From Deltaproteobacteria bacterium (GTDB taxonomy: Bacteria > Desulfobacterota > Desulfobulbia > Desulfobulbales > S012-135), in assembly GCA_015488275.1 (NCBI GenBank), contig WFOD01000090.1, positions 1 to 47,931 on the forward strand: a stretch of DNA of 47,931 nt. Direction: 5' to 3'. Shown here in pieces: positions 2 through 41,901 of this stretch; the first letter of the stretch is position 1, and each line of letters starts with the position of its first letter. The translations under genes and the position numbers were made by a program. The notes below the pieces were generated by a model. It was given only the letters and a program-made list of their open reading frames with translations, ran no database searches and was not told the origin of the DNA.

Positions 2-1189
2 GACAGCCCTCACCTCATGTCGGGCTACGTGGACGCCGCCGCGCGGGAGTTTGCCCTCCAACCCATCACACGGCCCTTTCCCACCGGGGACGTGGGATAC
101 AGGGACGAACACGGCAACCTGTTCATCACCGGCAGAAAAAAGGACGTCATTATTCGCGGCGGCGTCAACATCAGTCCGGCCGCGGTGGAGGATGTGTTAC
201 TGGAGCTCCCTGAGGTCAAGGAATGCGCCGTTGTCGGCATACCTCACGAGGTTTACGGCGAAGAGATCGTGGCCCTGGTCTGCTTGGAGCCCGGGCTGGG
301 TCTGGGGGATGTGGAGCCGGTCCTGCGTGAACGCTGCGCCGCCAAGCTGAGTTTCTACCAGCAGCCCCAGCAATTCTTCGAGATCGACCGGATGCCGCGC
401 AGCGTCAGCGGAAAAATCCAAAAAGAAAAGCTCCGGGCCATTCTCAAGCGAAAGCTCGGGCTGAAAGACCCGGAGAAAGAGCAAGCCAGGGATAAGGACA
501 TGCACATGTTCCGGCGCCGGAGGCGCATCGTAGACCTGACGCTGGCTCTGCATCCGGGTATGCCCAGCTACCCGACCCCCTATCATCCCGGCATGTCCGT
601 GACCTTGATGGCCACGCATGAAAAGGACGGCCGCGAGGTCCGTCAAATCGTGCTCGGATCGCACATGGGAACGCACGTGGACGCGCCGTTGCACATGCTG
701 CCGAGTGGCGCGTCCATTGATGCGGTTCCGCTGTCCAGATTCATGGGACCGGCAGGGATGGCGGATCTGCGCGACATTCCGCCGCGCCACGAGATCGGCG
801 CCGAGGAACTGCAACAGCGGCTCGGCGGACGGCCGCCCAAACGGCTTATCCTGCGCTACGGCTGGGACCAGCGGCTGGGAGACCAGAGCTATTTCACCGA
901 CCACCCGTATCTCTCCGAAGACGCCGCGCGATGGCTGGTGGAGGAAAAGGTAGTGCTGCTGGGCATGGATTGTCCACAACCGGACGCCCCGCATAACACC
1001 AACACGCCGGTCCATAAGATCCTGTTGGGCGGAGGCGTGGCCTTGTTGGAGTATTTGTGCAATCTGGATGAAATCCGCGCCGACCGGTTCGAACTCGTGG
1101 GCCTGCCGTTGAAAATCAGAGGCGCCGACGGTTCTCCGGTCCGGTGCGTGGCCGTGGTTGAGGACAACAAGGAAACAGAGGAAGCATGA
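2..1189 (+). CDS. AMP-dependent ligase (C-terminal part) fused to a kynurenine-formamidase-like cyclase domain; 5'-truncated by window edge
   Basis: A8-like TGDVGYRDEHGNLFITGRKKDVIIRGG and A10-like SGKIQKEKLR; then, with no intervening stop, a cyclase domain with HMGTHVDAPLH (HxGTHxDxPxH metal-binding motif). The reading frame is open to the left edge. Confidence 0.85.
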   Translation, partial: DSPHLMSGYVDAAAREFALQPITRPFPTGDVGYRDEHGNLFITGRKKDVIIRGGVNISPAAVEDVLLELPEVKECAVVGIPHEVYGEEIVALVCLEPGLGLGDVEPVLRERCAAKLSFYQQPQQFFEIDRMPRSVSGKIQKEKLRAILKRKLGLKDPEKEQARDKDMHMFRRRRRIVDLTLALHPGMPSYPTPYHPGMSVTLMATHEKDGREVRQIVLGSHMGTHVDAPLHMLPSGASIDAVPLSRFMGPAGMADLRDIPPRHEIGAEELQQRLGGRPPKRLILRYGWDQRLGDQSYFTDHPYLSEDAARWLVEEKVVLLGMDCPQPDAPHNTNTPVHKILLGGGVALLEYLCNLDEIRADRFELVGLPLKIRGADGSPVRCVAVVEDNKETEEA

Positions 1190-1446
1190 ACGACGTCAGG
1201 CGGTTCGTATATAACTGGTTCAAAAAAAAAGCTGAGAGAAAAAGGCTGGATGTAGAGTTCACCGATGACCTGGACTATTTCCAGGCGGGCCTGCTCGATT
1301 CCCTGGGCGTGGTGCTTTTGGTCCAGGAAATCGAAGCCGGACTCGGTGTGCGTTTCACGGAAGAGCACTTCTTGGACCGGCGTTTTGCCACGCTGGGTGG
1401 CCTGATTGCGATCGTCCAACATATCAGGGACGGCGAAAAGGATTAA
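1186..1446 (+). CDS. acyl carrier protein
   Basis: 86 aa, GLLDSLGVVLLVQEIE with a DSL phosphopantetheine attachment site; ATGA overlap with upstream gene. Confidence 0.85.
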   Translation: MNDVRRFVYNWFKKKAERKRLDVEFTDDLDYFQAGLLDSLGVVLLVQEIEAGLGVRFTEEHFLDRRFATLGGLIAIVQHIRDGEKD

Positions 1447-1449
1447 GCC

Positions 1450-2235
1450 ATGACCGCGCATTACAACCGGACCGAGTTCGCCGAAGCGCTGGCGAAAGTC
1501 GGGCTGCAAAAGGGCGACGTGGTCTTTTCTCACAGCAGTATTGGCTTTTTCGGCTACCCTGAGGAAGGCCGAGACAGGGATACGGTCTGTGAAGTCATCT
1601 TTCGGGCCTTCTTCGACGTCCTCGGCGACGAGGGGACTTTGGCCGTGCCCACCTTCACCTATTCCTTTTGCAAGGGCGAGCCTTTTCTGCCTGAACATAC
1701 GCCTTCCACATCCGGGGCCTTCACGGAGTGGCTGAGGCGGAGGGCCGACGCCAAGCGGTCTCTTGACCCCATCTTTTCCGTGGCCGCCGTGGGCGGACGG
1801 GCCGTCCGCATGACGAATGACGCGCCAAAAGAGTGCTTTGGCGAAAACAGCTTTTGGGACCGCCTGCACGCCGCGGGCGGACGCATCTGCAACCTCAACC
1901 TCAACGCCGGGTTCAACACCTTTTTGCATTACGCCGAGTGCAAGGCCGACGCGCACTACCGGATGCACAAACTGTTCACCGGAACCATCATCCAGGGCGG
2001 GCGAACATGGGAGTCCACGGTCGATTTTTTCTGCCAGTCGCCGGACCATCCCTATGCGGACTACGATCTATTCGCGGCCCTGGCCGAGGAGCAGGGGCTT
2101 GTGCGCAAGGCCAGGGTGGGCAGGGGGGTGATCGTATGCATTGACGCTGCAGACGCCTTGGATTTTTTCCTGACCCGATACGCTGGCGACAAACATTTTC
2201 TGCACCCAGAGGTTAAGGAGCGCGCATGTCCTTGA
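1450..2235 (+). CDS. AAC(3) family N-acyl/acetyltransferase
   Basis: GDVVFSHSSIGFFGYPEEG...GTLAVPTFTYSF...SLDPIFSVAAVG, typical of the AAC(3)/YokD fold. Confidence 0.85.
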   Translation: MTAHYNRTEFAEALAKVGLQKGDVVFSHSSIGFFGYPEEGRDRDTVCEVIFRAFFDVLGDEGTLAVPTFTYSFCKGEPFLPEHTPSTSGAFTEWLRRRADAKRSLDPIFSVAAVGGRAVRMTNDAPKECFGENSFWDRLHAAGGRICNLNLNAGFNTFLHYAECKADAHYRMHKLFTGTIIQGGRTWESTVDFFCQSPDHPYADYDLFAALAEEQGLVRKARVGRGVIVCIDAADALDFFLTRYAGDKHFLHPEVKERACP

Positions 2236-3569
2236 AAGCGTCTGTCGAGGAAGCCGTGCCGAAGGCCGAAAGCGCTTCGGCCATGCGGGAGCTTTTGACC
2301 GAACTGTTTCCCGTCCACCGGGCTCTGGTGGGCCCTGGGGCTGAGCGCACCCTGGAGATCATCTCCCGCCGCCTGGACCTGGAGGTGGAAGAAGTGCCCA
2401 GCGGAACCGAATGTTTCGACTGGATCGTGCCCAAGGCCTTCAAGGTCAACCAGGCCTGGGTCGAAGCTCCGGACGGGACGCGGATCATTGATTACGTTGA
2501 CTGCCATTACCACGTATGGAACTACAGCCGCCCCTTCGAGGGGGTGCTGGCCAGGGATGAGCTCAAGGCCAAAATCGCCACCCATCCTGAGCTGCCTGAT
2601 GCGGTGCCGTTCCGGTTCACGTATTACCGTGACGATTGGGGCCTGTCCGCCTCGGCCAGGCAGGTCGAGGCCCTGCCCCAGGGACCGTACAAGGTCTGTA
2701 TCGACACCGAGTTGTATGACGACTTCCTGCGCATCGGCCAGATAAAGTTGCCAGGAGAAAGCGACCGGGAAATCTTGTTCACGGGCTACATCTGCCATCC
2801 GCTGGGTGCCAACGACAGCCTGTCCGGCGTGGTCGTGCTCGTGGAGCTTTTCCGCCTGCTCTCCCGCCTGCCGCAGCGGCGCTACACCTACCGCCTGGCC
2901 TTGTGGCCCGAAGGTATCGGGGCCATAACCTATCTGTGGCGGTATCCCGAGCGGATCAAGCGCACCTTGGGAGGCTACGTGGTTACGTGTTGCGGAGATC
3001 CCGGACTGCTGACCTACAAAAAGAGTATCGCCGGGAACTCCATCTTCGACCGTGCCATGCTGCACGTTCTGGCCCACTCGGGGCAGCCTTACTCTACCAG
3101 AGAGTTCGGGTTCCACCGGGCCAGCGACGAGGCATACCTGAGCGCGCCCGGATTCAGGCTCCCTATGGGTTCGCTGATGCGCACGCCGTACGGGGAGTTC
3201 CCCGAATACCACTCATCCGCCGACAACCTGGACTTCGTTACGGACGAGGCCCTGCTGGAGACGCTGCAAACCTACTGGCGCGCGGTCATGGTTCTGGAGG
3301 CGAACCGTGTGTACCGGCCCAAATACGAGACATTACCGTTCTTGAGCCGTCACGGGGTCTACCCCTATCACGAGGGCGCGGGCGACGGCAGCCTCATGAC
3401 CCCGGCGGCCGACGCATACTACCATCTCATGGGATTCGCCGACGGGCGCGCCGACCTTCTGGCCATTGCCGAGCGGACCGGCACGCCCATGAAGTTGCTG
3501 ATCACGCCTGCCGAGGCCTTTCTCGAAAAAGGCTTGATCGAGGCTGTGGATGAGGAGGAGGACGGTTAG
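2226..3569 (+). CDS. DUF4910/M28 aminopeptidase-like protein of polysaccharide loci
   Basis: YICHPLGANDSLSGVVVLVELFRLL and the overall pattern resemble DUF4910/DUF2172 aminopeptidase-like proteins. Confidence 0.75.
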   Translation: MSLKASVEEAVPKAESASAMRELLTELFPVHRALVGPGAERTLEIISRRLDLEVEEVPSGTECFDWIVPKAFKVNQAWVEAPDGTRIIDYVDCHYHVWNYSRPFEGVLARDELKAKIATHPELPDAVPFRFTYYRDDWGLSASARQVEALPQGPYKVCIDTELYDDFLRIGQIKLPGESDREILFTGYICHPLGANDSLSGVVVLVELFRLLSRLPQRRYTYRLALWPEGIGAITYLWRYPERIKRTLGGYVVTCCGDPGLLTYKKSIAGNSIFDRAMLHVLAHSGQPYSTREFGFHRASDEAYLSAPGFRLPMGSLMRTPYGEFPEYHSSADNLDFVTDEALLETLQTYWRAVMVLEANRVYRPKYETLPFLSRHGVYPYHEGAGDGSLMTPAADAYYHLMGFADGRADLLAIAERTGTPMKLLITPAEAFLEKGLIEAVDEEEDG

Positions 3570-3570
3570 C

Positions 3571-5424
3571 ATGTGCGGGATCGCAGGCTATTTTGGACCT
3601 CGCGAGCTGCCCGAAGAACGGGTCGAAGCGTGTCTTCAGCTCATGCGCCGCCGCGGGCCTGACGCTCAAGGGGTGTGTCGGGCTTCCGCTCCGGGTGACC
3701 GCAGGCTCTACCTGCTGCACACGCGCCTGTCCATCATCGATATCGACCCGCGCGCCGATCAGCCTTTTTTCCGCAACGGCCTGTGCCTGGCATACAACGG
3801 GGAGCTATACAACTACCCGGAGTTGAGGGCCCGCCTGAAATCCGAAGGCGAATGTTTTTTCACGGACAGCGACACCGAGGTTTTATGCGCGCTGCTGGCC
3901 CGTTGGGGGCTGGACGGGCTGGACGCGTGTGAAGGCATGTGGGCCTTTGCGGCCTATGATGAACGGGAAGGACGGCTTCTGCTCTGCCGGGACCGCTTTG
4001 GGGAAAAGCCGTTGTACCTGTGCCGCGACCGCGAGGGCGGCCTGTATTTCGCCTCTGAGGTCAAGTTCCTGTTCGCCTTGCGCGGCAAGGGCTTCCCGGT
4101 CAACACCCGCCATCTGCTCCGCTACCTGATCAATGGGTACCGTGCTCTTTACAAGAGCGGCGAGCAGTTTTTCCTGGGCGTGGAAGAGCTTCCTGCGGCC
4201 ACGATCATGGAAATCGCCCCTGACGGGTCCCAAAAGAAGTGGCCCTATTGGACGCCCGGGGTCAACGTAGACAAGGGCATGGATTTTCCCGAGGCCGTGG
4301 AAGGGGTCAGGGAGGCGTTGATCAGGAGCGTGCGCCTCAGGCTTCGTTCTGACGCCCCCCTGGCGTTCTGCATGAGCGGAGGGGTGGACTCCAATAGTCT
4401 CATCTCCATCGCCGCCAGGGTCTTGAATCATGACGTCCACGGATTCACCATTGTCAACACGGACCAGAGGTACGACGAGCAGGGCATGATCGAGCGCTCG
4501 GTGGCCGAGCTGGGGATCAGGCATACGGCGATTCCGGTGCAGGCCAGGGAGTTCCTTCCCCTGCTGCGGAGCCTGGTCTGCGGCCACGACGCCCCGGTCT
4601 TCACCGTCTCCTCCTTTGCCCACTGGCTGTTGATGCAGGCCGTGGCTCTGCACGGCTACAAGGTGTGCGTAAGCGGCGTCGGCGCCGATGAACTGCTCGC
4701 CGGATATTACGACCACCACCTGATGTATCTGGCAGAGGTGCGTAACGACTCAGAGCTGTTCGAAAAGTCTTTGGAGAACTGGCGCAAGCACATCCGCCCC
4801 CTGGTGCGTAACCCCTTGTTGCGCGATCCCAACGCCTTTGTTGACAATCCGCGGTTAAGAGACCACCTGTATCTGAATGCGGATGAATTCCAAAAAAGGC
4901 TCAAGAGCGGATTCCATGAGCCTTTTGCGGAGCGCCGTTACCACCCCGGCCTGTTGCGAAACAGGATGCTCAACGAGCTGTTTCACGAGGTGGTCCCGGT
5001 CATCCTGCACGAGGACGACCTCAACGCCATGTACTTTTCCATCGAGAACCGTTCGCCGTTTCTGGACCGCGGGCTGTTCGAGCTTTGCTGTTCGGTTCCC
5101 GAACGGCACCTGATCCGCGACGGGTACAACAAGGCGGTGCTGAGGGAGGCTGTGCGGGGCATCGCCCCTGACGCCATCGTAGATGAGCGGCGCAAGGTCG
5201 GCTTCAACGCGCCCGTGCGTTCGTTCCTGGAGGTCAACGACCCTGGGGTTAGGCAGTGGCTCCTGGACGGCGGACCCATCTACGAGCATGTGCGCAAGGA
5301 GCCTGTGGAAGAGCTGCTCAACCGGGAGTTTTTACCCAACAGTGAAAGCAAGTTCTTGTTCTCCTTCATCAACGCGAAAATCTTCCTGGAGGAATACGAT
5401 TCGAAGAGCGGAGGGGGGATATGA
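3571..5424 (+). CDS. asnB: asparagine synthase (glutamine-hydrolyzing)
   Basis: Starts MCGIAGYFG (Cys2 nucleophile); synthetase PP-loop SGGVDSNS. Confidence 0.92.
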   Translation: MCGIAGYFGPRELPEERVEACLQLMRRRGPDAQGVCRASAPGDRRLYLLHTRLSIIDIDPRADQPFFRNGLCLAYNGELYNYPELRARLKSEGECFFTDSDTEVLCALLARWGLDGLDACEGMWAFAAYDEREGRLLLCRDRFGEKPLYLCRDREGGLYFASEVKFLFALRGKGFPVNTRHLLRYLINGYRALYKSGEQFFLGVEELPAATIMEIAPDGSQKKWPYWTPGVNVDKGMDFPEAVEGVREALIRSVRLRLRSDAPLAFCMSGGVDSNSLISIAARVLNHDVHGFTIVNTDQRYDEQGMIERSVAELGIRHTAIPVQAREFLPLLRSLVCGHDAPVFTVSSFAHWLLMQAVALHGYKVCVSGVGADELLAGYYDHHLMYLAEVRNDSELFEKSLENWRKHIRPLVRNPLLRDPNAFVDNPRLRDHLYLNADEFQKRLKSGFHEPFAERRYHPGLLRNRMLNELFHEVVPVILHEDDLNAMYFSIENRSPFLDRGLFELCCSVPERHLIRDGYNKAVLREAVRGIAPDAIVDERRKVGFNAPVRSFLEVNDPGVRQWLLDGGPIYEHVRKEPVEELLNREFLPNSESKFLFSFINAKIFLEEYDSKSGGGI

Positions 5425-7109
5425 CGGGGGCATCAATCGGCCGCCATAGAGTACACCCCTTTTCACCATGCGGCGGCCGGGAGGTCAGCGAACGCCTTGT
5501 GATATTCTTCCATGTGCCCAAGTGCGGCGGGGTCACGATGAGCGCGCTCTTTGACCGCATCTTTGGAAACGGCCACTATGGCCGCGTCAATTTTCCCCAC
5601 GAATGGCTCGCGGTAAAAAAAAGTGGCTTTGCCCGGCGCACGGGCGAGGATCTGGCCGTATCGGGCCATGCCTCCTGGGGAATCCACAGCATCTTCGCGC
5701 ACCCCAAAAACGTCTTCTACGTGACTACGTTGCGCGAACCGTTCAGGCTCTTTCTCTCCGACTACCGTTACGCCCGGATGAACTACACGCCGGCCAAATC
5801 TCCGGAGGAGTATCTGGAGAATCATTACGGCTGCAACATGATGACCGCCTACTTGGGCGATGGAGATCTGGATCTGGCCAAGAGGCGCCTGGCCGAGACC
5901 TACTTCCTCTTCGGGCTGGTGGAGCGGTACAGGGAAAGCGTGGCCTTGCTCGCCCACCATCTTGGCCTGCGCGTTTCATGCTTCAGCGTGCGCAACAAAT
6001 CACGTCCGTCGGGAGAGGAGCCGGAGACGGATTCCCGGCTGCAAAAGCGCTTCGCCGAGAAAAATCTGCTGGATATCGAACTGTATCAATACGCACTCAA
6101 CCTGTTCGAAGAACGGTTGAAAAGCGTGGACGGGCTGGCCGAGCCCTTGACCGCCCCGCCTCTTGAAAAGTTGGATGAGAACTCCTGGCACAAAAGTTCA
6201 AGCAAGGCTCGCGAGCAGATTGACAAAGGCCGCCATGACGAGGCGGCAAAGGTTCTGGAGGCCGGCGGGGCCAAGACAATGGCGGTCTACCGGGCCATCG
6301 CCCGAGCGTATCAATCCCAGGGCGACGAAGCGCAAGCAGAGCGCTGGCTGCGGGAAGGGGTGGAAAAGTATCCAAGCATGATCCGCGAGCTTTATTACTT
6401 CTATGAACAGCGCGGGAACTTGGAGCAGGCCACCCGATTGGCGGACGCAGCAGCCGCCGAACTGTTGCAACTGGATGTTGCCGAACCTCCAGATGCATCC
6501 TTCAATAGGTTCAAGAGGGACATCCTTTTCGACTTGGCCCGCTATCGTCTCATGGCTGGCGAGCGAGACGCAGCCTTGACTTGCTACCGCCAGGCATACC
6601 GGGCCGCACCGACGTCCTGGGATTCCTATCTGGGTAAGCGGCGACTTGAGAAGGGGCCATCCGTTATGGACACGCTTTCGCGCAAAGAGCGCGTCCTGGT
6701 GCTTCGTCTGGGACCGTTGTTGTGCCTGGATAGCTTTTTCGACACGCTGGCCGGATTACGATCACGGCCAAAAATCGAGCTGGTGATACAGGAGGACCTC
6801 GCAGATCATGTGGCCGGAAGCGACCTAGTCGCCGCAGTGCACCGCATCGCGCCGGGACGTTTTGACCTTGAGCGCGAAAGGCCGCGTCTGTCCGAGAGGT
6901 TGTGGCGCACACGTTACGACGCTGTGATCGTGGTCATCAACAGGGAAAATCTGAGTCGGTTCCAGCAAGCATACGCCTTGGCCGCAGAGCTCAACATGGA
7001 GGTCTGTCTCGTATACCCGATGATCAACGTATGCCTTGGGGCGCAGGAGAGGTTTTTCTGCGAGATATCGGTTGCCAACATACGGTTGGCGAGCGAGGCC
7101 CAAGCATGA
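5421..7109 (+). CDS. sulfotransferase-family protein with TPR-like and C-terminal extension
   Basis: VIFFHVPKCGGVTMSALFDRIFG resembles the PAPS-binding 5' loop; later helical repeats (EAAKVLEAGGAKTMAVYRAIARAYQSQGDEAQAERWL). Confidence 0.7.
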   Translation: MTGASIGRHRVHPFSPCGGREVSERLVIFFHVPKCGGVTMSALFDRIFGNGHYGRVNFPHEWLAVKKSGFARRTGEDLAVSGHASWGIHSIFAHPKNVFYVTTLREPFRLFLSDYRYARMNYTPAKSPEEYLENHYGCNMMTAYLGDGDLDLAKRRLAETYFLFGLVERYRESVALLAHHLGLRVSCFSVRNKSRPSGEEPETDSRLQKRFAEKNLLDIELYQYALNLFEERLKSVDGLAEPLTAPPLEKLDENSWHKSSSKAREQIDKGRHDEAAKVLEAGGAKTMAVYRAIARAYQSQGDEAQAERWLREGVEKYPSMIRELYYFYEQRGNLEQATRLADAAAAELLQLDVAEPPDASFNRFKRDILFDLARYRLMAGERDAALTCYRQAYRAAPTSWDSYLGKRRLEKGPSVMDTLSRKERVLVLRLGPLLCLDSFFDTLAGLRSRPKIELVIQEDLADHVAGSDLVAAVHRIAPGRFDLERERPRLSERLWRTRYDAVIVVINRENLSRFQQAYALAAELNMEVCLVYPMINVCLGAQERFFCEISVANIRLASEAQA

Positions 7110-7717
7110 TCGCGGTCATTGACTACGGGTTGGGTAACGTGCGCTCGGTGGCGGGCGCGGTGCAACGGGTGGGTTACGAGCCCGTTCTGACGCGCGACCC
7201 GCACACACTGGCCCGCGCCGACAAACTGATCCTGCCCGGCGTGGGCGCGTTTCCCGACGGCATGGCTCGGCTTAAGGCTCAGGGGCTGGACGAGGTCCTT
7301 GGCGAACTCGTCATCGGTCGCGGCAAGCCGATACTGGGCGTCTGCCTGGGGATGCAGCTTCTCGCCAAGGAAAGCCTCGAGTTTGGACGCCACCAGGGCC
7401 TGGGCTGGATCGACGCCACGGTGATAAAGCTGGAATGCGACGGGATGGAGCTGCGATTGCCCCACGTAGGGTGGAACGATCTGTTTCAGGTGGCGAGCTG
7501 TCCCCTGTTTAAAGAAATTCCGGAAGATGCCCTCTTCTATTATGTGCATTCCTATCACCTCGAGTGTCGTTCACGAGATCTGGTAAAGGGTGAATGCGAG
7601 TACGGCGGCCGCGTTACGGCGGTGGTGCAAAAGGACAATATTTTTGGAGTACAATTCCATCCGGAGAAGAGCCAACTTTACGGTCTGGTTGTGCTGAAAA
7701 ATTTTCTCGACCTGTAA
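7106..7717 (+). CDS. hisH: HisH-type glutamine amidotransferase (amidino-sugar pathway paralog)
   Basis: MIAVIDYGLGNVRSV, VCLGMQLL nucleophile, FGVQFHPEKS. Confidence 0.9.
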   Translation: MIAVIDYGLGNVRSVAGAVQRVGYEPVLTRDPHTLARADKLILPGVGAFPDGMARLKAQGLDEVLGELVIGRGKPILGVCLGMQLLAKESLEFGRHQGLGWIDATVIKLECDGMELRLPHVGWNDLFQVASCPLFKEIPEDALFYYVHSYHLECRSRDLVKGECEYGGRVTAVVQKDNIFGVQFHPEKSQLYGLVVLKNFLDL

Positions 7718-7727
7718 CGGCGAGTCA

Positions 7728-8471
7728 ATGGTACGCAAACGACTCATAACGGTGCTGACCTTTAACGACGGCGTTTTGTTTAGGACCCGAAACTTCTTCC
7801 CGGATTACCGTTACACGGCCAACTTCGTGGATACGTGGTCCGTTGACGAGATCGTGCTTTTGGACATCACCCGTCCGGGTGAAGGAGCGCGGGAAAATTT
7901 TTACGCCGTGCTGGAGGAATTCGCCGCCAAATGCTTTGTGCCCTTGACCGCAGGGGGCGGGGTGCGTGGCCTGGAGGATTTTCAAATCCTCTTGTCCCTG
8001 GGCGCTGACAAGATTCTGATCAACACCGCTGCGGTGGAGGAGCCGGACCTCATCCGGCGGGCGGCGTATCGGTACGGCAGCCAGTGCGTTATGGTGGGCA
8101 TTGATGCGCTGCGCAGGTCAGACGGGCGGTACGAAACACGCACGCATTTCGGGGCCAGGCCAACGGGTCTGGACCCGGCCGCCTGGGCCGCTCGCGCGGC
8201 TGCACTCGGGGCCGGAGAGATCCTCGTGCAGTCCATTGACAGGGACGGCACGCTGGAAGGCTACGACAACGAGCTCAACCGGTTCGTTTCTGAAGCCGTG
8301 GACATCCCGGTGCTGGTCTGCGGAGGCGCTGGTAAGTGGATGGATTTCGTAGACGGGTTCACCAAGGGCGGCGCTTCGGCGGTCTGTACGACGAACATCT
8401 ATCATTTCACGGAAAGCAGCATCTCGAGCGCCAAGAGATTTCTGAGAAACGCCAATATCAACGTTAGATAA
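7728..8471 (+). CDS. hisF: HisF-type cyclase/synthase subunit (amidino-sugar pathway paralog)
   Basis: MVRKRLITVLTFNDGVLFRTRNFFPDYRYTANFVDTWSVDEIVLLDITRP; directly after hisH and before the amidotransferase. Confidence 0.88.
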   Translation: MVRKRLITVLTFNDGVLFRTRNFFPDYRYTANFVDTWSVDEIVLLDITRPGEGARENFYAVLEEFAAKCFVPLTAGGGVRGLEDFQILLSLGADKILINTAAVEEPDLIRRAAYRYGSQCVMVGIDALRRSDGRYETRTHFGARPTGLDPAAWAARAAALGAGEILVQSIDRDGTLEGYDNELNRFVSEAVDIPVLVCGGAGKWMDFVDGFTKGGASAVCTTNIYHFTESSISSAKRFLRNANINVR

Positions 8472-8580
8472 TGCCTCGCCTTTCAAAAGAACCATGAGCG
8501 CACCCGACACTGTTACGTTCAGTTTTCTCAAGCCCGGCAACAGCCCCGGAACAGGCTGCGGAACGGGCGGAAGGCGGATT

Positions 8581-9738
8581 ATGTTCTGCCGCAAATGCTT
8601 GATGCCCAATACCCGGCCGCGCATCGTTTTCGACGAGGAAGGCGTGTGCAACGCCTGTCGCCACGCGGAGGCGAAAGCGGCCATCAACTGGCAGGCTAGA
8701 AAGGACGAGTTCCTGCGTATTCTGGATCGCTACCGGTCCAAGGACGGCTCGTGGGATTGCATCGTTCCATGGAGCGGCGGCAAGGATTCGTCGTCCATAG
8801 CCTACAAGCTGAAATACCATTTCGGCATGAACCCGCTGTTGGTGACCTTCTCGCCCATGATGCCCACCGAGATCGGCAACAAGAACAGGGAAGCGCTCTT
8901 GCGTCAGGGATTTGACCACCTCTTTTTCCGCCCCGATCAGAAAATACAGCGGCACCTGGCCCGGCGTTTTTTCATCGAACGCGGCAACCCCAAGGTCTGC
9001 TGGGACGCAGGCGTCAACTCCCTGCCCCTGCGCACGGCCGTGGAAAAAAACATTCCCCTGGTCTTTTTCGCCGAGCATGGCGAGAGCGAATACGGCGGCA
9101 AGGTGCTGAGCGAAAGACATCAAAAGATGCGCGACTTCACCGAAGTCATCGAGCACCAGGTGGGCGACGACCCGCGCAACTGGGTGGATGACGTGGTCTC
9201 GGAAAGGAACCTTGCCCCCTATGTTTACCCGGATGAGGAACTCCTGGCCAAGGTGGGCGTCAAGGCGCTCTACTTCGGGTATTTCTTCCGTTGGAGCATG
9301 GCCGAGAACTACCGTTTCATCAGGGATAAGTATGAGTTTTGCACGGATCCCAAGGGGCGCACCGAGGGTACCTTCACCAATTTCGACAGTATCGACGACA
9401 AGATTGACGGCCTTTACTACTATATGCAGTACATCAAGTTTGGATTTGGCCGGGCCGTGCGTGACGCATGCCGCATGATCCAAAACAACCAGCTCACCCG
9501 GGAAGAAGCCCTTGATCTCGCCGAAAAGTACGACGGCGAGTTTCCCCGCGAATACCATCAGGAGGTGCTGGAATACCTCGACCTGAGCGAAGACGAGTTT
9601 TGGGACGTGGTGAACAAACACCGCAACCGGGAGATCTGGAGCGGCGGCAACGGACGCTGGAAGCTGCGTTTTTCCCTGCGCGAGGCCTGTCTCGGCGGGG
9701 ATGCGGTCCGGGTGACAGAAGGAGGGAGGACGGCATGA
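8581..9738 (+). CDS. N-acetyl sugar amidotransferase (WbpG/PseA family)
   Basis: MFCRKCLMPNTRPRIVFDEEGVCNACRHAE and PP-loop VPWSGGKDSSSIAYKLK; adjacent hisH and hisF. Confidence 0.9.
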   Translation: MFCRKCLMPNTRPRIVFDEEGVCNACRHAEAKAAINWQARKDEFLRILDRYRSKDGSWDCIVPWSGGKDSSSIAYKLKYHFGMNPLLVTFSPMMPTEIGNKNREALLRQGFDHLFFRPDQKIQRHLARRFFIERGNPKVCWDAGVNSLPLRTAVEKNIPLVFFAEHGESEYGGKVLSERHQKMRDFTEVIEHQVGDDPRNWVDDVVSERNLAPYVYPDEELLAKVGVKALYFGYFFRWSMAENYRFIRDKYEFCTDPKGRTEGTFTNFDSIDDKIDGLYYYMQYIKFGFGRAVRDACRMIQNNQLTREEALDLAEKYDGEFPREYHQEVLEYLDLSEDEFWDVVNKHRNREIWSGGNGRWKLRFSLREACLGGDAVRVTEGGRTA

Positions 9739-18830: not shown

Positions 18831-20699
18831 ATGTTGCCTGACGCCTGTGGTGACGTTTTCTCGCGGAATATCGCACTCCTCCAGCGGCGCAAGCCAGATC
18901 TCCTTCCGGTGGCCCAGGGAGAATCCCACTCATTGCTTGATCTGCCGCCGATGGATGGGACTTTTGCCGCGTTCGCCCAGTCCTTACCCCAGAAGGAGGA
19001 GGCGTTGGTCTTTCTGGTCGGTTTGGGCTCTGGCCATGAGGCCAGGGAGCTTTGCGCGCGTTCCGGCCAGGAGATCCGGCTCGTGGTGATCGAGCCGCAG
19101 GCCGCCGTGTTCCGTGCCGCCCTGCACCATACGGATCTTGCGCCGCTTTTGCAAAGCGACGACGTGCGGTTCTTCATCGGTCCGGACGCCGAGGTAGGGC
19201 GGATCTTCCAGCGGGAGGAGGACAGTTTGCGGGCCCTTTCTCCCCATCTTTTTTGCAACACGGTGCTGCGCGACCGTTTCCCGGCCGTGTACGGCCCGCT
19301 TTGCCGGCAGATGGAGGAGCGGCTGCGCCGGTTCAGGGCCCAGGTCGGGACCATCGAGCGGCGTGGCCCGCGTCTCTTTGCCAATACCGTGCACAACTGT
19401 TCGCGGCTGGGCATGGCCGCGCACGTTGCCGCCTTGGCCGACATGGCCCGCGGCCGGCCCGCCGTCTGCGTGGCGGCCGGCCCCTCGCTCACCAAAAACG
19501 TCGGTCTGCTGCGGGAGGGGCGGGATCAGGCCCTGATCCTTGCGGTGGACAGCGCGGCCAAGGTCCTTCTGGATCACGGTATCCGGCCCCATTGCGTGCT
19601 CACCATCGATCCCATTCCAGCGAGCCTGCGGAAACTCGGCGAGGTCGCGGCGGTCTGGGCCGATCTCCCCCTGGTCTGGACCCCGGACGCCTATCATGAG
19701 ACCGTGGCCCGGTTCTCAGGCGGGCCGCAGTTCGTGATGCCGGGCGTCAACGACTTTTTCCGCCTGTTTTTGGGCGATCTGTTCGGCGAGACGCAGACGT
19801 TTGCGCATCTGGAGTCGGTGACCAACGCCGCCATTCAGCTCGCCATCCTGGCCGGCGCCGACCCTGTGGTGTGTATCGGGCTCGACCTTGCCCTCACCGG
19901 GGGCAGGGATCACGCCGACGGCTGCCCGGTCCGGTGGAAGAACGAGATCGAGCGGCTTCCCGTGCCCGCCTGGAACGGTGGCGAGGTGGAGACGGTGCCC
20001 GTATTGCTGCACCAGATCCGCTCCATCGGGACCCTGGTGGCCCGCCATCCGGAGCGTGTCTTTGTCGATGCCACCGAAGGGGGAGCCAGGATCCACGGCA
20101 TGACGGTGGCCTCCCTTGCCGAGGTGCTGGCCGGACTGCCGGCCACGGGTGAGGACTGGGAGGCGCGGATCCTCGATCGGTTCCGGGCCGCACGCCGGCC
20201 CCGGCTCGAGGGTGTGGCCCAGCGCCTGGAACGGCTGCGGACCGCGGTCCAAGGATCGCGCAGGCTTGCGCAGCGGGGGCTGCGGGCGGGCAAGGAGGCG
20301 CGGCAGCAGTGGCGGCTTGCCAAGATGCCCGCCAAGCGCGGCCGGGCCATGCCACGGTTCAAGAAGGCGGTCATCGCTGCGGGCAATGCCATGGACCAGT
20401 TGCGGGCGGCCCAGGAACTCACCAATGCGCTTTTCCCCCTCCGGGCCCGCGAGCACCACCGCCTCATCTATGCGCGGGAGAAGTTTCTGCGCCGCGCTGG
20501 TTCGAGCACGCCGGAACGGCGTATCTTCGATGAACTGGCGATCAATCTCGACTATTTTGCCTCCTGGCTTGCCACCCTTGACGACGCGGAACGCCTGCTG
20601 TGTCCGGCCATCGCCGCCCTCAAGACCGGCCGCCCCTTTGTCGGTCCGCCGCAGGCGGCCGGTGGCGGACAAAAGGGAGGCAGGGGCAAGAACCAATGA
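18831..20699 (+). CDS. motility accessory factor (Maf)/DUF115, 6-hydroxymethylpterin pyrophosphokinase MptE-like protein
   Basis: RPAVCVAAGPSLTKNVGLLREGRDQALILAVDSAAKVLLDHGIRPHCVLTIDP is the DUF115 hallmark. Confidence 0.88.
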   Translation: MLPDACGDVFSRNIALLQRRKPDLLPVAQGESHSLLDLPPMDGTFAAFAQSLPQKEEALVFLVGLGSGHEARELCARSGQEIRLVVIEPQAAVFRAALHHTDLAPLLQSDDVRFFIGPDAEVGRIFQREEDSLRALSPHLFCNTVLRDRFPAVYGPLCRQMEERLRRFRAQVGTIERRGPRLFANTVHNCSRLGMAAHVAALADMARGRPAVCVAAGPSLTKNVGLLREGRDQALILAVDSAAKVLLDHGIRPHCVLTIDPIPASLRKLGEVAAVWADLPLVWTPDAYHETVARFSGGPQFVMPGVNDFFRLFLGDLFGETQTFAHLESVTNAAIQLAILAGADPVVCIGLDLALTGGRDHADGCPVRWKNEIERLPVPAWNGGEVETVPVLLHQIRSIGTLVARHPERVFVDATEGGARIHGMTVASLAEVLAGLPATGEDWEARILDRFRAARRPRLEGVAQRLERLRTAVQGSRRLAQRGLRAGKEARQQWRLAKMPAKRGRAMPRFKKAVIAAGNAMDQLRAAQELTNALFPLRAREHHRLIYAREKFLRRAGSSTPERRIFDELAINLDYFASWLATLDDAERLLCPAIAALKTGRPFVGPPQAAGGGQKGGRGKNQ

Positions 20700-33070: not shown

Positions 33071-33280
33071 TTACAGGGGCCGGGCCGTCCTGTCAAGCAA
33101 GAAAACGATCTCGCCTATCGTTCCTTCGTTTTATCTGTGTCTTGCCTGGCGGGAAGATTGGTGTCTGCTCTTGCCCGAAACGGCCGGGTCGGGTAAATAG
33201 GCGGAGGTTCCATCGCCTGTCGTGTGGCCAGGCGCCAGTATTGGCGAAGATCGTTATTAGGTGAATATACGGAGGAACGT

Positions 33281-35050
33281 ATGAAGGTTCTCGTCGTCGG
33301 TTCAGGGGGCAGGGAGCACGCCTTGGTGTGGAAGCTGCGGCAGAGCCCGCGGGTGACAAAGGTCTATTGCGCGCCGGGCAATGCCGGCGTCGCGGCCTTG
33401 GCCGAATGCGTGGCCATTGGCGCCGAGGACATCGACGGCCTGCTGGCCTTTGCCCAGGAAAACGGCGTCGGCTGCACAGTGGTCGGTCCCGAGGCCCCGC
33501 TCGTGGCCGGCATCGTGGACCGCTTCCAAGAGGCTGGCCAGCGGATTTTTGGCCCAGTGGCCGCCGCGGCCCGCCTCGAGGGGTCCAAGGCGTTCAGCAA
33601 ACAGATCATGCAACAATACGGTATCCCCACTGGCGGCTTTGCGGTCTTTCAAGACGTGGACACAGCCCTCGCCCATCTCGACACCGTGGGCGCGCCGGTG
33701 GTGGTCAAGGCCGATGGCCTGGCGGCGGGCAAGGGGGTGATTGTCTGCCAGACCATTGACGAGGCGCGCAAGGCGGTGGATGCCATCGGCCGGGAGCGGG
33801 CCTTTGGCGCGGCCGGCGACCGCATCGTGATCGAGGAGTTCCTCGAAGGGGAAGAGGCCTCGTTCCTGGCCTTTGTTGATGGCGAGACCGTGCTGCCCTT
33901 GCCCACCTCGCAGGACCACAAGGCGGTCTATGACGGCGACCGCGGGCCGAACACCGGCGGCATGGGGGCCTACTCGCCGGCGCCGGTGGTGACGCCTGAG
34001 CTTCACCGCCAGGTGATGGAAGAGATCATGGTACCCACGGTGCGGGCGATGGCGGCTGAAGGCCATCCCTACAAGGGGATGTTGTACGCTGGCCTGATGA
34101 TCAAGGACGGCCGGGCCAAGGTGTTGGAGTTCAACTGCCGGTTTGGCGATCCTGAGTGCCAGCCGCTCCTTATGCGTTTGCGTTCCGATCTTATGGATGT
34201 GATCGACGCGGTGATCGACGGCTCCCTCGACCGCTTGGAGCTCGATATTGATCCGCGGCCCACGGTCTGTGTGGTCATGGCCTCGGGCGGCTATCCCGGC
34301 TCCTACGCCAAAGGACATGCCATCACCGGGCTGGAAGAGGCGGCGGCCTTGGACGATGTGGTGGTCTTTCACGCCGGTACGGCCAGTGAGGACGGCAAGG
34401 TGGTGACCGCCGGCGGCCGCGTGCTCGGGGTTACGGCCATTGGTTCCGATCTGCCAGCCGCCATTGACCGGGCCTATGAGGCGGTGGCCAAGATCTCCTG
34501 GCAGGATTGCTACTACCGCAAGGATATTGGCCAGAAGGCCCTGCGCCGCCTGGCCCGGAAAAAGGTGCGCATTCTCATGGGGAGCGACTCCGACCTGCCG
34601 GTCATGCGGGAGGCGGCGGCGATTCTTGAGGACTTTGGTATTGAATACGATATGACCGTGGCCTCGGCCCACCGCACGCCCGAAAGGGCCGCCCGCTTGG
34701 CGCGCGCCGCCCGGGCGGAGAACGTGGGGGTGATCATTGCTGGCGCCGGCATGGCCGCGCACCTGGCTGGCGTGCTGGCGGCCCATACCACCTTGCCGGT
34801 GATCGGCGTGCCCCTCGACGCCTCCTCGCTCAACGGCCTCGACGCCCTGCTCGCCACGGTGCAGATGCCGCCCGGCGTGCCGGTGGCCACTATGGCCGTG
34901 GGCAAGGCCGGGGCGCGCAACGCCGCCATCCTGGCCGCCCAGATCCTCTCCCTTGCCAACGCTGATCTTGCCCGCAAGCTCGACGACCACAAGGCCAAGA
35001 TGGCCCGGCAGGTGGAGGAAAAGGCGGCCCGGCTCGCCCAGGAGGGCTGA
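33281..35050 (+). CDS. purD: fused phosphoribosylamine-glycine ligase / N5-carboxyaminoimidazole ribonucleotide mutase (PurD-PurE)
   Basis: PurD: MKVLVVGSGGREHALVWKL...HKAVYDGDRGPNTGGMGAYSPAP; continuing in frame to PurE: KKVRILMGSDSDLPVMREAA...SAHRTPERA...IIAGAGMAAHLAGVLA. Confidence 0.93.
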   Translation: MKVLVVGSGGREHALVWKLRQSPRVTKVYCAPGNAGVAALAECVAIGAEDIDGLLAFAQENGVGCTVVGPEAPLVAGIVDRFQEAGQRIFGPVAAAARLEGSKAFSKQIMQQYGIPTGGFAVFQDVDTALAHLDTVGAPVVVKADGLAAGKGVIVCQTIDEARKAVDAIGRERAFGAAGDRIVIEEFLEGEEASFLAFVDGETVLPLPTSQDHKAVYDGDRGPNTGGMGAYSPAPVVTPELHRQVMEEIMVPTVRAMAAEGHPYKGMLYAGLMIKDGRAKVLEFNCRFGDPECQPLLMRLRSDLMDVIDAVIDGSLDRLELDIDPRPTVCVVMASGGYPGSYAKGHAITGLEEAAALDDVVVFHAGTASEDGKVVTAGGRVLGVTAIGSDLPAAIDRAYEAVAKISWQDCYYRKDIGQKALRRLARKKVRILMGSDSDLPVMREAAAILEDFGIEYDMTVASAHRTPERAARLARAARAENVGVIIAGAGMAAHLAGVLAAHTTLPVIGVPLDASSLNGLDALLATVQMPPGVPVATMAVGKAGARNAAILAAQILSLANADLARKLDDHKAKMARQVEEKAARLAQEG

Positions 35051-40221: not shown

Positions 40222-41901
40222 CTAGGGGCGCAGGGTGCGGGCAAGGGTTTCGTCCACCGCCAGGGCGAGACGCATGTTGCGGCGGATAAACGTTTCAGAA
40301 AGATAGTCGCGGTTGCTGTCGATCACGGCCCGCAGCGCATCGAGATCGCCCTGTTCGGCCATGTGCTGGAGGCGGCCTAACTCGGTGATGAAGTCGCGCA
40401 CCACGTCCATGCCGCAGCCCGGTGCGGCCAGGATCTCGGCATAGGTCCGGTCGTTCTGGGCATGGATACGGGCCAGGGCCAGGAGGGTGTAGAGCGAGGT
40501 GAGGGTGGCGTGGTCGCCGGTGGCCGTTGCCGTGAGTCCGTGAGCCGCCAGGGTGCGGGCCAGGGCCACGGAGATGAGGGTGGGCAGTTTTTGCACCACG
40601 CCCATGAACCGGTCGTGCTCCTCTGCCGAGTCCACCAGGATGTCGGCCCCGTGCTTGTAGAGGAACCCTTCGAATTCGCTACAGAACGCGCCGCTGCGCG
40701 CGGTGCGCACCACCACGGCGGTCTTGTTCTTCATCGCCACCGCCTTGGGGCCCCAGAGGTTGTGCACCAGCATGAGTTCCACCCCGGGCCGGGTATGGGC
40801 CAGGGCGGTGTCCACGATCTCCGCCGCCGCGCCGGCGAGCAGGATCAGGGCCTGGCCCTCCCGCAGCCGGGGGCCGTACCGCTGGATCGTTGCCGGCGTG
40901 GCGCTGATCGGCACGCAGATCACCACCACATCCACCTGGTCGATCATCTCTTCCGGCGTCAGAGGCGAGGTACGGCCGGAGAGCAGGGTGCGGTAGCCTT
41001 CGCTGGCCAGCCGATCGGCAAACCATTGGCTCATGGCGCCGGTGCCGATGAAGCCGAACGACTCGATGAGTTTGCTCCGCATGTCCACCCGCGGAAAGCT
41101 GCCGAGCACCGTGATCGCTCCTGGGACCTGGATCACCTCCTGTTCGATGCGGGCCAAGGCCGTCTGCACCGTTTCATCCTCCATATGGCCCTCAACCTCT
41201 ACATAGATCCGTAATTCCTGTGTCTTGACGTCCGCGTCGGAGCGCAGATCCAGGATGTTGATCCCCCGGCGGGTGAACTCGCCCAGGATATCGAACAACA
41301 GGCCCACGCGGTCCTTGAGCGGCGCGGTGAGCATGGCTGTGGCGTCGTAGCCGGTGCGGGCCGCCGGCCGCCGGCCGATGACCGCGTATCGGGTCCGGTT
41401 GTGACTGACGATCTCCCGGTCGCGGATCACGAGGTTGCGGGCCTTGAGCACCTCTTCCGCCTCGATCACTCCCCAGGAGCGTCGGTCCTCCCGCCGCACC
41501 GCCCGGATGGCTGCATCGATATCCTGGACCGTGACGAGATCGCTTGAGGGAAAGCGTTCGGCGATGTACTCCTCGGCTTGACGGAGCGCTGATCCGGTGC
41601 CCACCAAGGTGGAGAGCGGGGTCCTGTCGTCCACCGCGCCCAGGGAAAGATGGATGGGCAGCACCACGTTGCCGCACCAGGCAAGGCCGTTGAGCGCGGC
41701 CATGCGGCGGAAAAAACCGCGATGTTCGCCTTCGCGGGTGTTGTACACCGGCAAAAGAAGGAAATCGGCCCTGCCGTCGCGCACCGCCGCCAGGGCTGCG
41801 GCGGGTGAAGCACAGGGCAGGATGTCGGCGTCGCTGTCGTGGAGCTGGGCCGCTTGCCAGGGATGGGCGCCGGGCGGGCCGGTGATGGCGATGGTGCTCA
41901 T
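40222..41901 (-). CDS. fused prephenate dehydratase-like/ACT/prephenate dehydrogenase protein
   Basis: N-term ITGPPGAHPWQAAQL, LLPVYNTREGEHRG, HNRTRYAVIGRR; ACT segment DRVGLLFDILGEFTRRGINILDLRSD; C-term NAD-binding IESFGFIGTGAMSQWFADRLASEGYRTLLSGR. Confidence 0.85.
   Translation of the reverse strand: MSTIAITGPPGAHPWQAAQLHDSDADILPCASPAAALAAVRDGRADFLLLPVYNTREGEHRGFFRRMAALNGLAWCGNVVLPIHLSLGAVDDRTPLSTLVGTGSALRQAEEYIAERFPSSDLVTVQDIDAAIRAVRREDRRSWGVIEAEEVLKARNLVIRDREIVSHNRTRYAVIGRRPAARTGYDATAMLTAPLKDRVGLLFDILGEFTRRGINILDLRSDADVKTQELRIYVEVEGHMEDETVQTALARIEQEVIQVPGAITVLGSFPRVDMRSKLIESFGFIGTGAMSQWFADRLASEGYRTLLSGRTSPLTPEEMIDQVDVVVICVPISATPATIQRYGPRLREGQALILLAGAAAEIVDTALAHTRPGVELMLVHNLWGPKAVAMKNKTAVVVRTARSGAFCSEFEGFLYKHGADILVDSAEEHDRFMGVVQKLPTLISVALARTLAAHGLTATATGDHATLTSLYTLLALARIHAQNDRTYAEILAAPGCGMDVVRDFITELGRLQHMAEQGDLDALRAVIDSNRDYLSETFIRRNMRLALAVDETLARTLRP

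Follow-up and report, generated by a model that had tools for sequence, protein, structure and literature searches.

A Predicted Ligase/Cyclase/Carrier Protein Cassette for N-Acylation of Nonulosonic Acids in a Candidate Flagellin-glycosylation Locus

RESULTS

Genes at the Start of the Locus

The window, by which we mean the whole 47,931-nucleotide stretch of DNA analyzed here, is the start of contig C90 in a 2.83-Mb draft genome, and it opens with a run of closely packed genes (Table 1). A single open frame without a stop (2–1189, plus strand, 395 residues) joins an adenylation C-subdomain to a cyclase domain in one polypeptide, as a preliminary description of this DNA had claimed. Because the window starts at the contig edge, only the last ~150 residues of the acyl-adenylating enzyme are visible. 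A profile search gave 58 bits for AMP-binding_C (residues 62–138 of the frame; cut-off 24.5) and 106 bits for Cyclase (PF04199; residues 177–329; cut-off 23.1). The ligase part has intact TGD, GRKKDVIIRGG and C-terminal lysine (SVSGKIQKEK) motifs, and the GRKKD hinge together with the catalytic lysine of SGKIQKEK places it with the C-terminal subdomain of the ANL adenylating enzymes. A search of the other contigs of the genome did not find the missing N-terminal half and returned only distant ligases (25–29% identity). Complete ligases are present in relatives; that of genome G019 is about 44–46% identical to the window ligase over the aligned part and has the P-loop motif FTSGTTSQPKG, and that of G301 has FTSGTTGRPKG.

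Table 1. Features of the cassette and its surroundings, and fused AAC(3)-DUF4910 genes in other genomes
Feature	Location	Coordinates	Strand	Evidence
Acyl-adenylating (ANL-type) ligase, C-terminal part	Window	2–439	+	AMP-binding_C match; 5' end cut by contig edge
In-frame linker between ligase and cyclase, 22 codons	Window	440–505	+	Codon-use score and sequence
Cyclase (PF04199) domain, kynurenine-formamidase/isatin-hydrolase family	Window	506–1189	+	Profile, homology, tree
Acyl carrier protein (ACP)	Window	1186–1446	+	PP-binding (PF00550), 26.5 bits (cut-off 20.8)
AAC(3)-fold N-acyltransferase	Window	1450–2235	+	Antibiotic_NAT (PF02522), 120 bits (cut-off 25)
DUF4910 + DUF2172 + winged-helix protein, homologue of Clostridium acetobutylicum CA_C2195	Window	2226–3569	+	Profiles; PDB 3k9t
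AsnB-like glutamine amidotransferase	Window	3550–5424	+	TIGR01536, 355 bits (cut-off 267)
HisH - WbuZ/HisF2 - WbuX acetamidino set	Window	6902–9738	+	TIGR01855 and TIGR03573 over cut-offs
MptE-like/motility-accessory-factor (MAF) protein	Window	18831–20699	+	PF01973, 98.7 bits (cut-off 34.6)
AAC(3)-DUF2172/DUF4910 fusion, one polypeptide	G301, L123	10951–12819
AAC(3)-DUF2172/DUF4910 fusion, one polypeptide	G267, L141	5389–7173
AAC(3)-DUF2172/DUF4910 fusion, one polypeptide	G376, L143	5186–7375

The cyclase domain belongs to PF04199, with an intact metal motif (HMGTHVDAPLH, pattern HxGTHxDxPxH) that is kept in the relatives, and it is 49% identical to the G019 cyclase. Its score for the KynB arylformamidase equivalog TIGR03035 is 103 bits against a cut-off of 223. 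Plasmid records yielded no close relatives of this cyclase, only distant ones with 36–38% identity.

The ACP and AAC(3) genes had been described as coupled behind the cyclase, and the spacing bears this out, with a 4-base overlap between cyclase and ACP (1186–1189) and a gap of 3 bases between ACP and AAC(3). The ACP carries its phosphopantetheine serine in LLDSLG, and residues Gly-35, Asp-38 and Ser-39 are invariant across six homologues; AmcB is its best family match, at a sub-threshold 26 of 80 bits. The protein encoded at 1450–2235 is a member of the Antibiotic_NAT fold family in which His-160 and Glu-163 are invariant across six homologues, and it scores 91.7 bits against the 270 set for the resistance-enzyme equivalog (NCBIfam AAC_3).

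The preliminary description ended the module with the AAC(3) gene at 2235, a boundary that does not hold, as the DUF4910 gene that it left out overlaps AAC(3) by 10 bases (2226–2235) and belongs to the module. The encoded protein is of the DUF4910/CA_C2195 type and aligns with 3k9t over almost its whole length (E=1.5e-85); HTH_47 scored 26.9 bits, just under its cut-off of 27.1. In the alignment to 3k9t the single-zinc ligands H-D-H are kept as His-191, Asp-197 and His-329, and the active-site aspartate and glutamate of the M28 family are not kept. DUF4910 has been described as lacking two catalytic residues of M28 peptidases (PMC4000134), and a deacylase role is uncertain because these two residues are missing. 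The AsnB-like gene that follows is probably also a member of the cassette operon.

Conservation of the Gene Order

Ligase and ACP genes accompany related cyclases in distant bacteria. A scan of species genomes, from which 80 cyclase loci were fetched, showed that the five most similar loci (Phaeovulum vinaykumarii, Rhizobium altiplani, a Rhodobacteraceae MAG, a myxococcal MAG and an elusimicrobial MAG) all have a ligase and an ACP beside the cyclase, and this arrangement was detected in none of the remaining 75 at the sensitivity used. Two more examples are G019, found in a search of 58 relatives, and G301, which belongs to the phylum of the window. The order ligase-(VOC-like)-cyclase-ACP-AAC(3)-DUF4910 is seen in G019, Phaeovulum, R. 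altiplani and the Rhodobacteraceae MAG, the order ligase-cyclase-ACP-(methyltransferase)-AAC(3) in G301 and the myxococcal MAG, and ligase-cyclase-ACP on the elusimicrobial contig. Alphaproteobacteria have the cassette with its genes separate, and it recurs in part in Myxococcota, in Elusimicrobiota and in two genomes from the order or phylum of the window. A 4-hydroxy-2-oxovalerate-aldolase-like gene usually stands in front of the cassette in these relatives; in the window this position lies beyond the contig edge.

In G019 the cassette copy lies inside a pseudaminic-acid cluster, between pseB and pseG/pseI. The locus starts with pseB, pseC-like, pseF-like, methyltransferase, 4-hydroxy-2-oxovalerate-aldolase-like, ligase, VOC-like, cyclase and ACP genes and continues with methyltransferase, AAC(3), DUF4910, pseG, formyltransferase-like and pseI genes; PseB, PseG, PseI and the aldolase were called by NCBIfam, and pseC, pseF and VOC by reading of the sequence. 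The formyltransferase-like gene between pseG and pseI (L012, 4182–4829) occupies the position expected for pseH. The G301 locus reads aldolase, ligase, cyclase, ACP, methyltransferase, AAC(3)-DUF4910 fusion, methyltransferase and DUF4910.

AAC(3) and DUF2172/DUF4910 are joined in one polypeptide in three genomes, all in the window's phylum (Table 1). The G376 fusion adjoins pseB- and pseG-like genes. That of G267 adjoins an ACP and FkbH and lies near a frame read as flagellin-like, and it may represent the AAC(3)/DUF4910 transfer pair with another acyl source. Because the fusions occur with such differing neighbors, the AAC(3)/DUF4910 pair appears to be the fixed core, to which interchangeable acyl suppliers would be added.

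The cyclase itself sits between the ligase (or the VOC-like gene) and the ACP in eight loci, including that of the window, from several phyla. Of the 106 cyclases placed in a tree, all eight carrier-linked ones fall in a single branch (support 99/83) together with one other, from G605, which lies beside ABC-transporter-like genes with no ACP or ligase nearby. The ACP label requires two changes on this tree compared with 7.8 in shuffles, none of 500 being as low. We judge it very improbable that this cyclase is a formamidase-type hydrolase with no relation to the locus and lies there by chance; PF04199 members are indeed common and occur in many other contexts, but the place of this one is kept across eight loci of several phyla that all fall in one supported branch of nine, and it remains below the arylformamidase cut-off.

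The Ligase-Cyclase Fusion

The preliminary description had called the fusion of ligase and cyclase unusual. It is real in the assembled sequence and found only here, but as ligase and cyclase are separate genes in seven of seven relatives it is not a defining feature. The separate genes overlap, by 7 bases in G301 and by 31 on the elusimicrobial contig, or have a VOC-like gene between them. No further ligase-cyclase fusion was found among the other cyclase loci, where long upstream frames coincide with no ligase match. Most plausibly, two partner genes that adjoin elsewhere have been joined locally here.

Codon use in the linker disfavors a frameshift origin. The score is 0.26 for the frame of the fusion, inside the range of the ligase/cyclase reference (mean 0.33, s.d. 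0.11, range 0.07–0.58), compared with −0.47 and −0.55 for the two alternative frames. As the linker fits the coding frame and fits the other two poorly, a base gained or lost within it is unlikely. Possible internal starts remain at the junction with the cyclase, namely ATG codons at 500 and 506 with AAGGA upstream, so that the cyclase may also be translated separately. These starts, the separate state of the two genes in all seven relatives and a stop within the linker in both other frames would fit an assembly or sequencing error in what are really two genes, for instance through erroneous loss of a stop codon. Linker codon use within the reference range argues against gain or loss of a base, and we consider such an error unlikely. 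Structure prediction for the fused protein from its single sequence reached a mean confidence of 39.9 and was set aside. A joint alignment of ligase fragments and cyclases misaligned both domains and was left out for the ligase part.

The Rest of the Window and the Host Genome

Downstream of the AsnB-like gene, the frame at 5421–7109 begins like a sulfotransferase (FFHVPKCGGVTM) and continues with TPR-like repeats, and its first half matches no confident Pfam family. HisH starts inside the first frame of the acetamidino set, in which TIGR03572 reached 225 of 299.7 bits. The set would make acetamidino groups on sugars, a separate function in the same locus. The host has two HisH/HisF2/WbuX-type sets, this one and another on contig C163 (L133, 9897–12674), in a legionaminic-acid cluster. 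The MptE-like MAF protein is likely to be a flagellin glycosyltransferase; its PseD domain match is weak (44.9 of 670 bits). Two fused metabolic enzymes also lie in the window (33224–35050 and 40222–41901, minus strand); one combines PurD and a PurE-type AIR carboxylase, the other a prephenate dehydratase-ACT and a prephenate dehydrogenase.

The host genome contains flagellins. Contig C163 carries LegB, LegC, a NeuB-type synthase, the second WbuX and a flagellin gene, and contig C282 carries PseG, PseH and PseI. A short gene between pseH and pseI on C282 (L132, 2232–2696) reads like a MaoC-type dehydratase. The acceptor of the acyl group is likely to be a flagellin-type nonulosonic acid, which, as the pse genes are on another contig, may be either pseudaminic or legionaminic acid.

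DISCUSSION

A Possible Pathway and Its Alternatives

We think it probable that the genes described here form a cassette supplying the acyl donor with which a nonulosonic acid, of pseudaminic or legionaminic type, is N-acylated in a locus for flagellin glycosylation. In this scheme the ligase would adenylate a small carboxylic acid and load it onto the neighboring ACP, and the cyclase domain, whose family is one of metal hydrolases, would alter the acid before or after loading, the likeliest step for this family being the opening or closing of a ring, amide or lactone. DUF4910 would remove the acetyl group of the sugar to leave one free amino group, the AAC(3)-fold enzyme would move the acyl group from the ACP to that amino group, and the MAF protein would attach the modified sugar to flagellin. 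All of these enzymatic steps are inferred; what was observed are the genes, their conserved order, the intact motifs, the cyclase group and the pseudaminic, legionaminic and flagellin genes of the host. Activation of an acid, loading of the ACP and N-acylation of an amino sugar had been proposed in the preliminary description, and that part gains support from comparison. The ordered genes reappear in distant phyla, in one case within a pseudaminic-acid cluster, and mutants link a DUF4910-type protein of Campylobacter to N-acyl exchange on pseudaminic acid; the DUF4910 partner was missing from the proposal.

The identity of the acid can be guessed from the aldolase and VOC-like genes of the relatives, which would suit a short, 3-hydroxybutanoyl-like hydroxy acid. 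A further reading, which we hold less likely than not, is that the N-acyl group is one new to nonulosonic acids, in which case the aldolase would yield a hydroxy-keto acid, the VOC-like and PF04199 proteins would reshape it, and the AAC(3)/DUF4910 pair would swap it for acetyl. The PF04199 step would then possibly take place on the carrier protein itself, and such a carrier-bound reaction, if true, would be of a new kind for this hydrolase family.

Two other assignments of the transfer step deserve consideration. Acetyl-CoA is the donor for the AAC(3) enzymes whose function is known, and the AAC(3)-fold enzyme of the cassette might likewise take acetyl-CoA or another acyl-CoA directly, leaving the ligase, cyclase and ACP to serve another modification in the locus. 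The G376 fusion, beside which no homologue of the cassette ACP or ligase was detected, would agree with this, but the ACP gene adjoins AAC(3), or stands one methyltransferase gene away, wherever both occur, and an FkbH/ACP pair fills the same place in G267; we judge direct use of acyl-CoA to be unlikely. We hold it equally improbable that DUF4910 itself acts as the transacylase and carries an acyl group derived from a peptide or from glutamine to the amino sugar, the amide being made by the AsnB-like enzyme. Such an activity was proposed by Das et al. (PMC4000134), pseudaminic acid bearing N-acetylglutamine has been reported in Campylobacter (PMC3068675), and an AsnB-like gene follows DUF4910 here and is matched by a 57% identical one in the G301 locus. 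Yet no AsnB homologue was detected in the stretch of G019 that was read, and the AAC(3)-fold acyltransferase that regularly accompanies DUF4910, nearby or as a fusion, leaves no need for a second transferase.

Transfer from the ACP by the AAC(3)-fold enzyme, our preferred reading, points to a modular design in which a DUF4910 and AAC(3)-fold pair exchanges the N-acyl group of a sialic acid-like sugar and the suppliers, FkbH/ACP or ligase/cyclase/ACP, are interchangeable. It gives DUF4910, the AAC(3) proteins of glycan loci and the carrier-linked PF04199 enzyme functions that can be tested jointly, and it cautions against taking every AAC(3)-like gene of a glycan locus for a resistance gene.

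Comparison with Known Systems

The cyclase shares the family profile and metal-binding motif of the kynurenine formamidase/isatin hydrolase family (PF04199), from whose named members it differs in scoring under the arylformamidase cut-off, in falling in a separate carrier-linked tree group and in being fused to a ligase. For the ligase and ACP, the closest proven precedent among the systems compared is AmcH/AmcB of cispentacin biosynthesis, in which an ANL ligase loads a free-standing ACP (PMC10698177). The acid there is 2-oxoglutarate and the pathway yields a free amino acid, whereas the window cassette would serve sugar decoration and its ACP scores far below the AmcB cut-off. The cispentacin paper assigns no role to a PF04199 enzyme, as its only mention of a cyclase concerns general polyketide chemistry (PMC10698177).

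A close functional parallel for the transfer pair is Cj1295 - Cj1296/7 of Campylobacter jejuni, where the genes for a DUF4910-type protein and an N-acetyltransferase adjoin in a locus for flagellin glycosylation and pseudaminic acid undergoes acyl exchange. Cj1295 has an aminopeptidase-like domain. Pseudaminic acid does not acquire its di-O-methylglyceroyl form without this protein, for which removal of the C5 acetyl group has been proposed, and its listed neighbor Cj1296/7 is a putative N-acetyltransferase (PMC3068675). Across 16,130 surveyed C. jejuni genomes the presence of Cj1295 correlates with the pse genes (PMC13130089). The Campylobacter product is di-O-methylglyceroyl (PMC3068675), and the acid of the cassette may well differ, given the ligase, cyclase and ACP here and the aldolase and VOC-like protein added in relatives.

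An ACP is part of the comparison in Clostridium. Das et al. described a locus with DUF4910, a MAF protein, an aminosugar N-acetyltransferase, an ACP and an N-acetyltransferase/HAD-phosphatase protein together, and mentioned fusions (PMC4000134); in C. acetobutylicum (CA_C2186-CA_C2199; Das et al. 2014, PMC4000134) DUF4910 (CA_C2195), MAF, aminosugar N-acetyltransferase, ACP, glyoxylase and a NeuB-type synthase recall the genes discussed here. The neighbor of the clostridial ACP is the N-acetyltransferase plus HAD phosphatase protein, whereas in the window it is the AMP ligase with the cyclase. Because earlier work already indicates carrier-borne N-acylation in flagellar glycan loci, the cassette is a variant and not a new scheme; what would be new to a scheme already glimpsed in Campylobacter and Clostridium is the ligase/cyclase as acyl source in place of FkbH, in several phyla.
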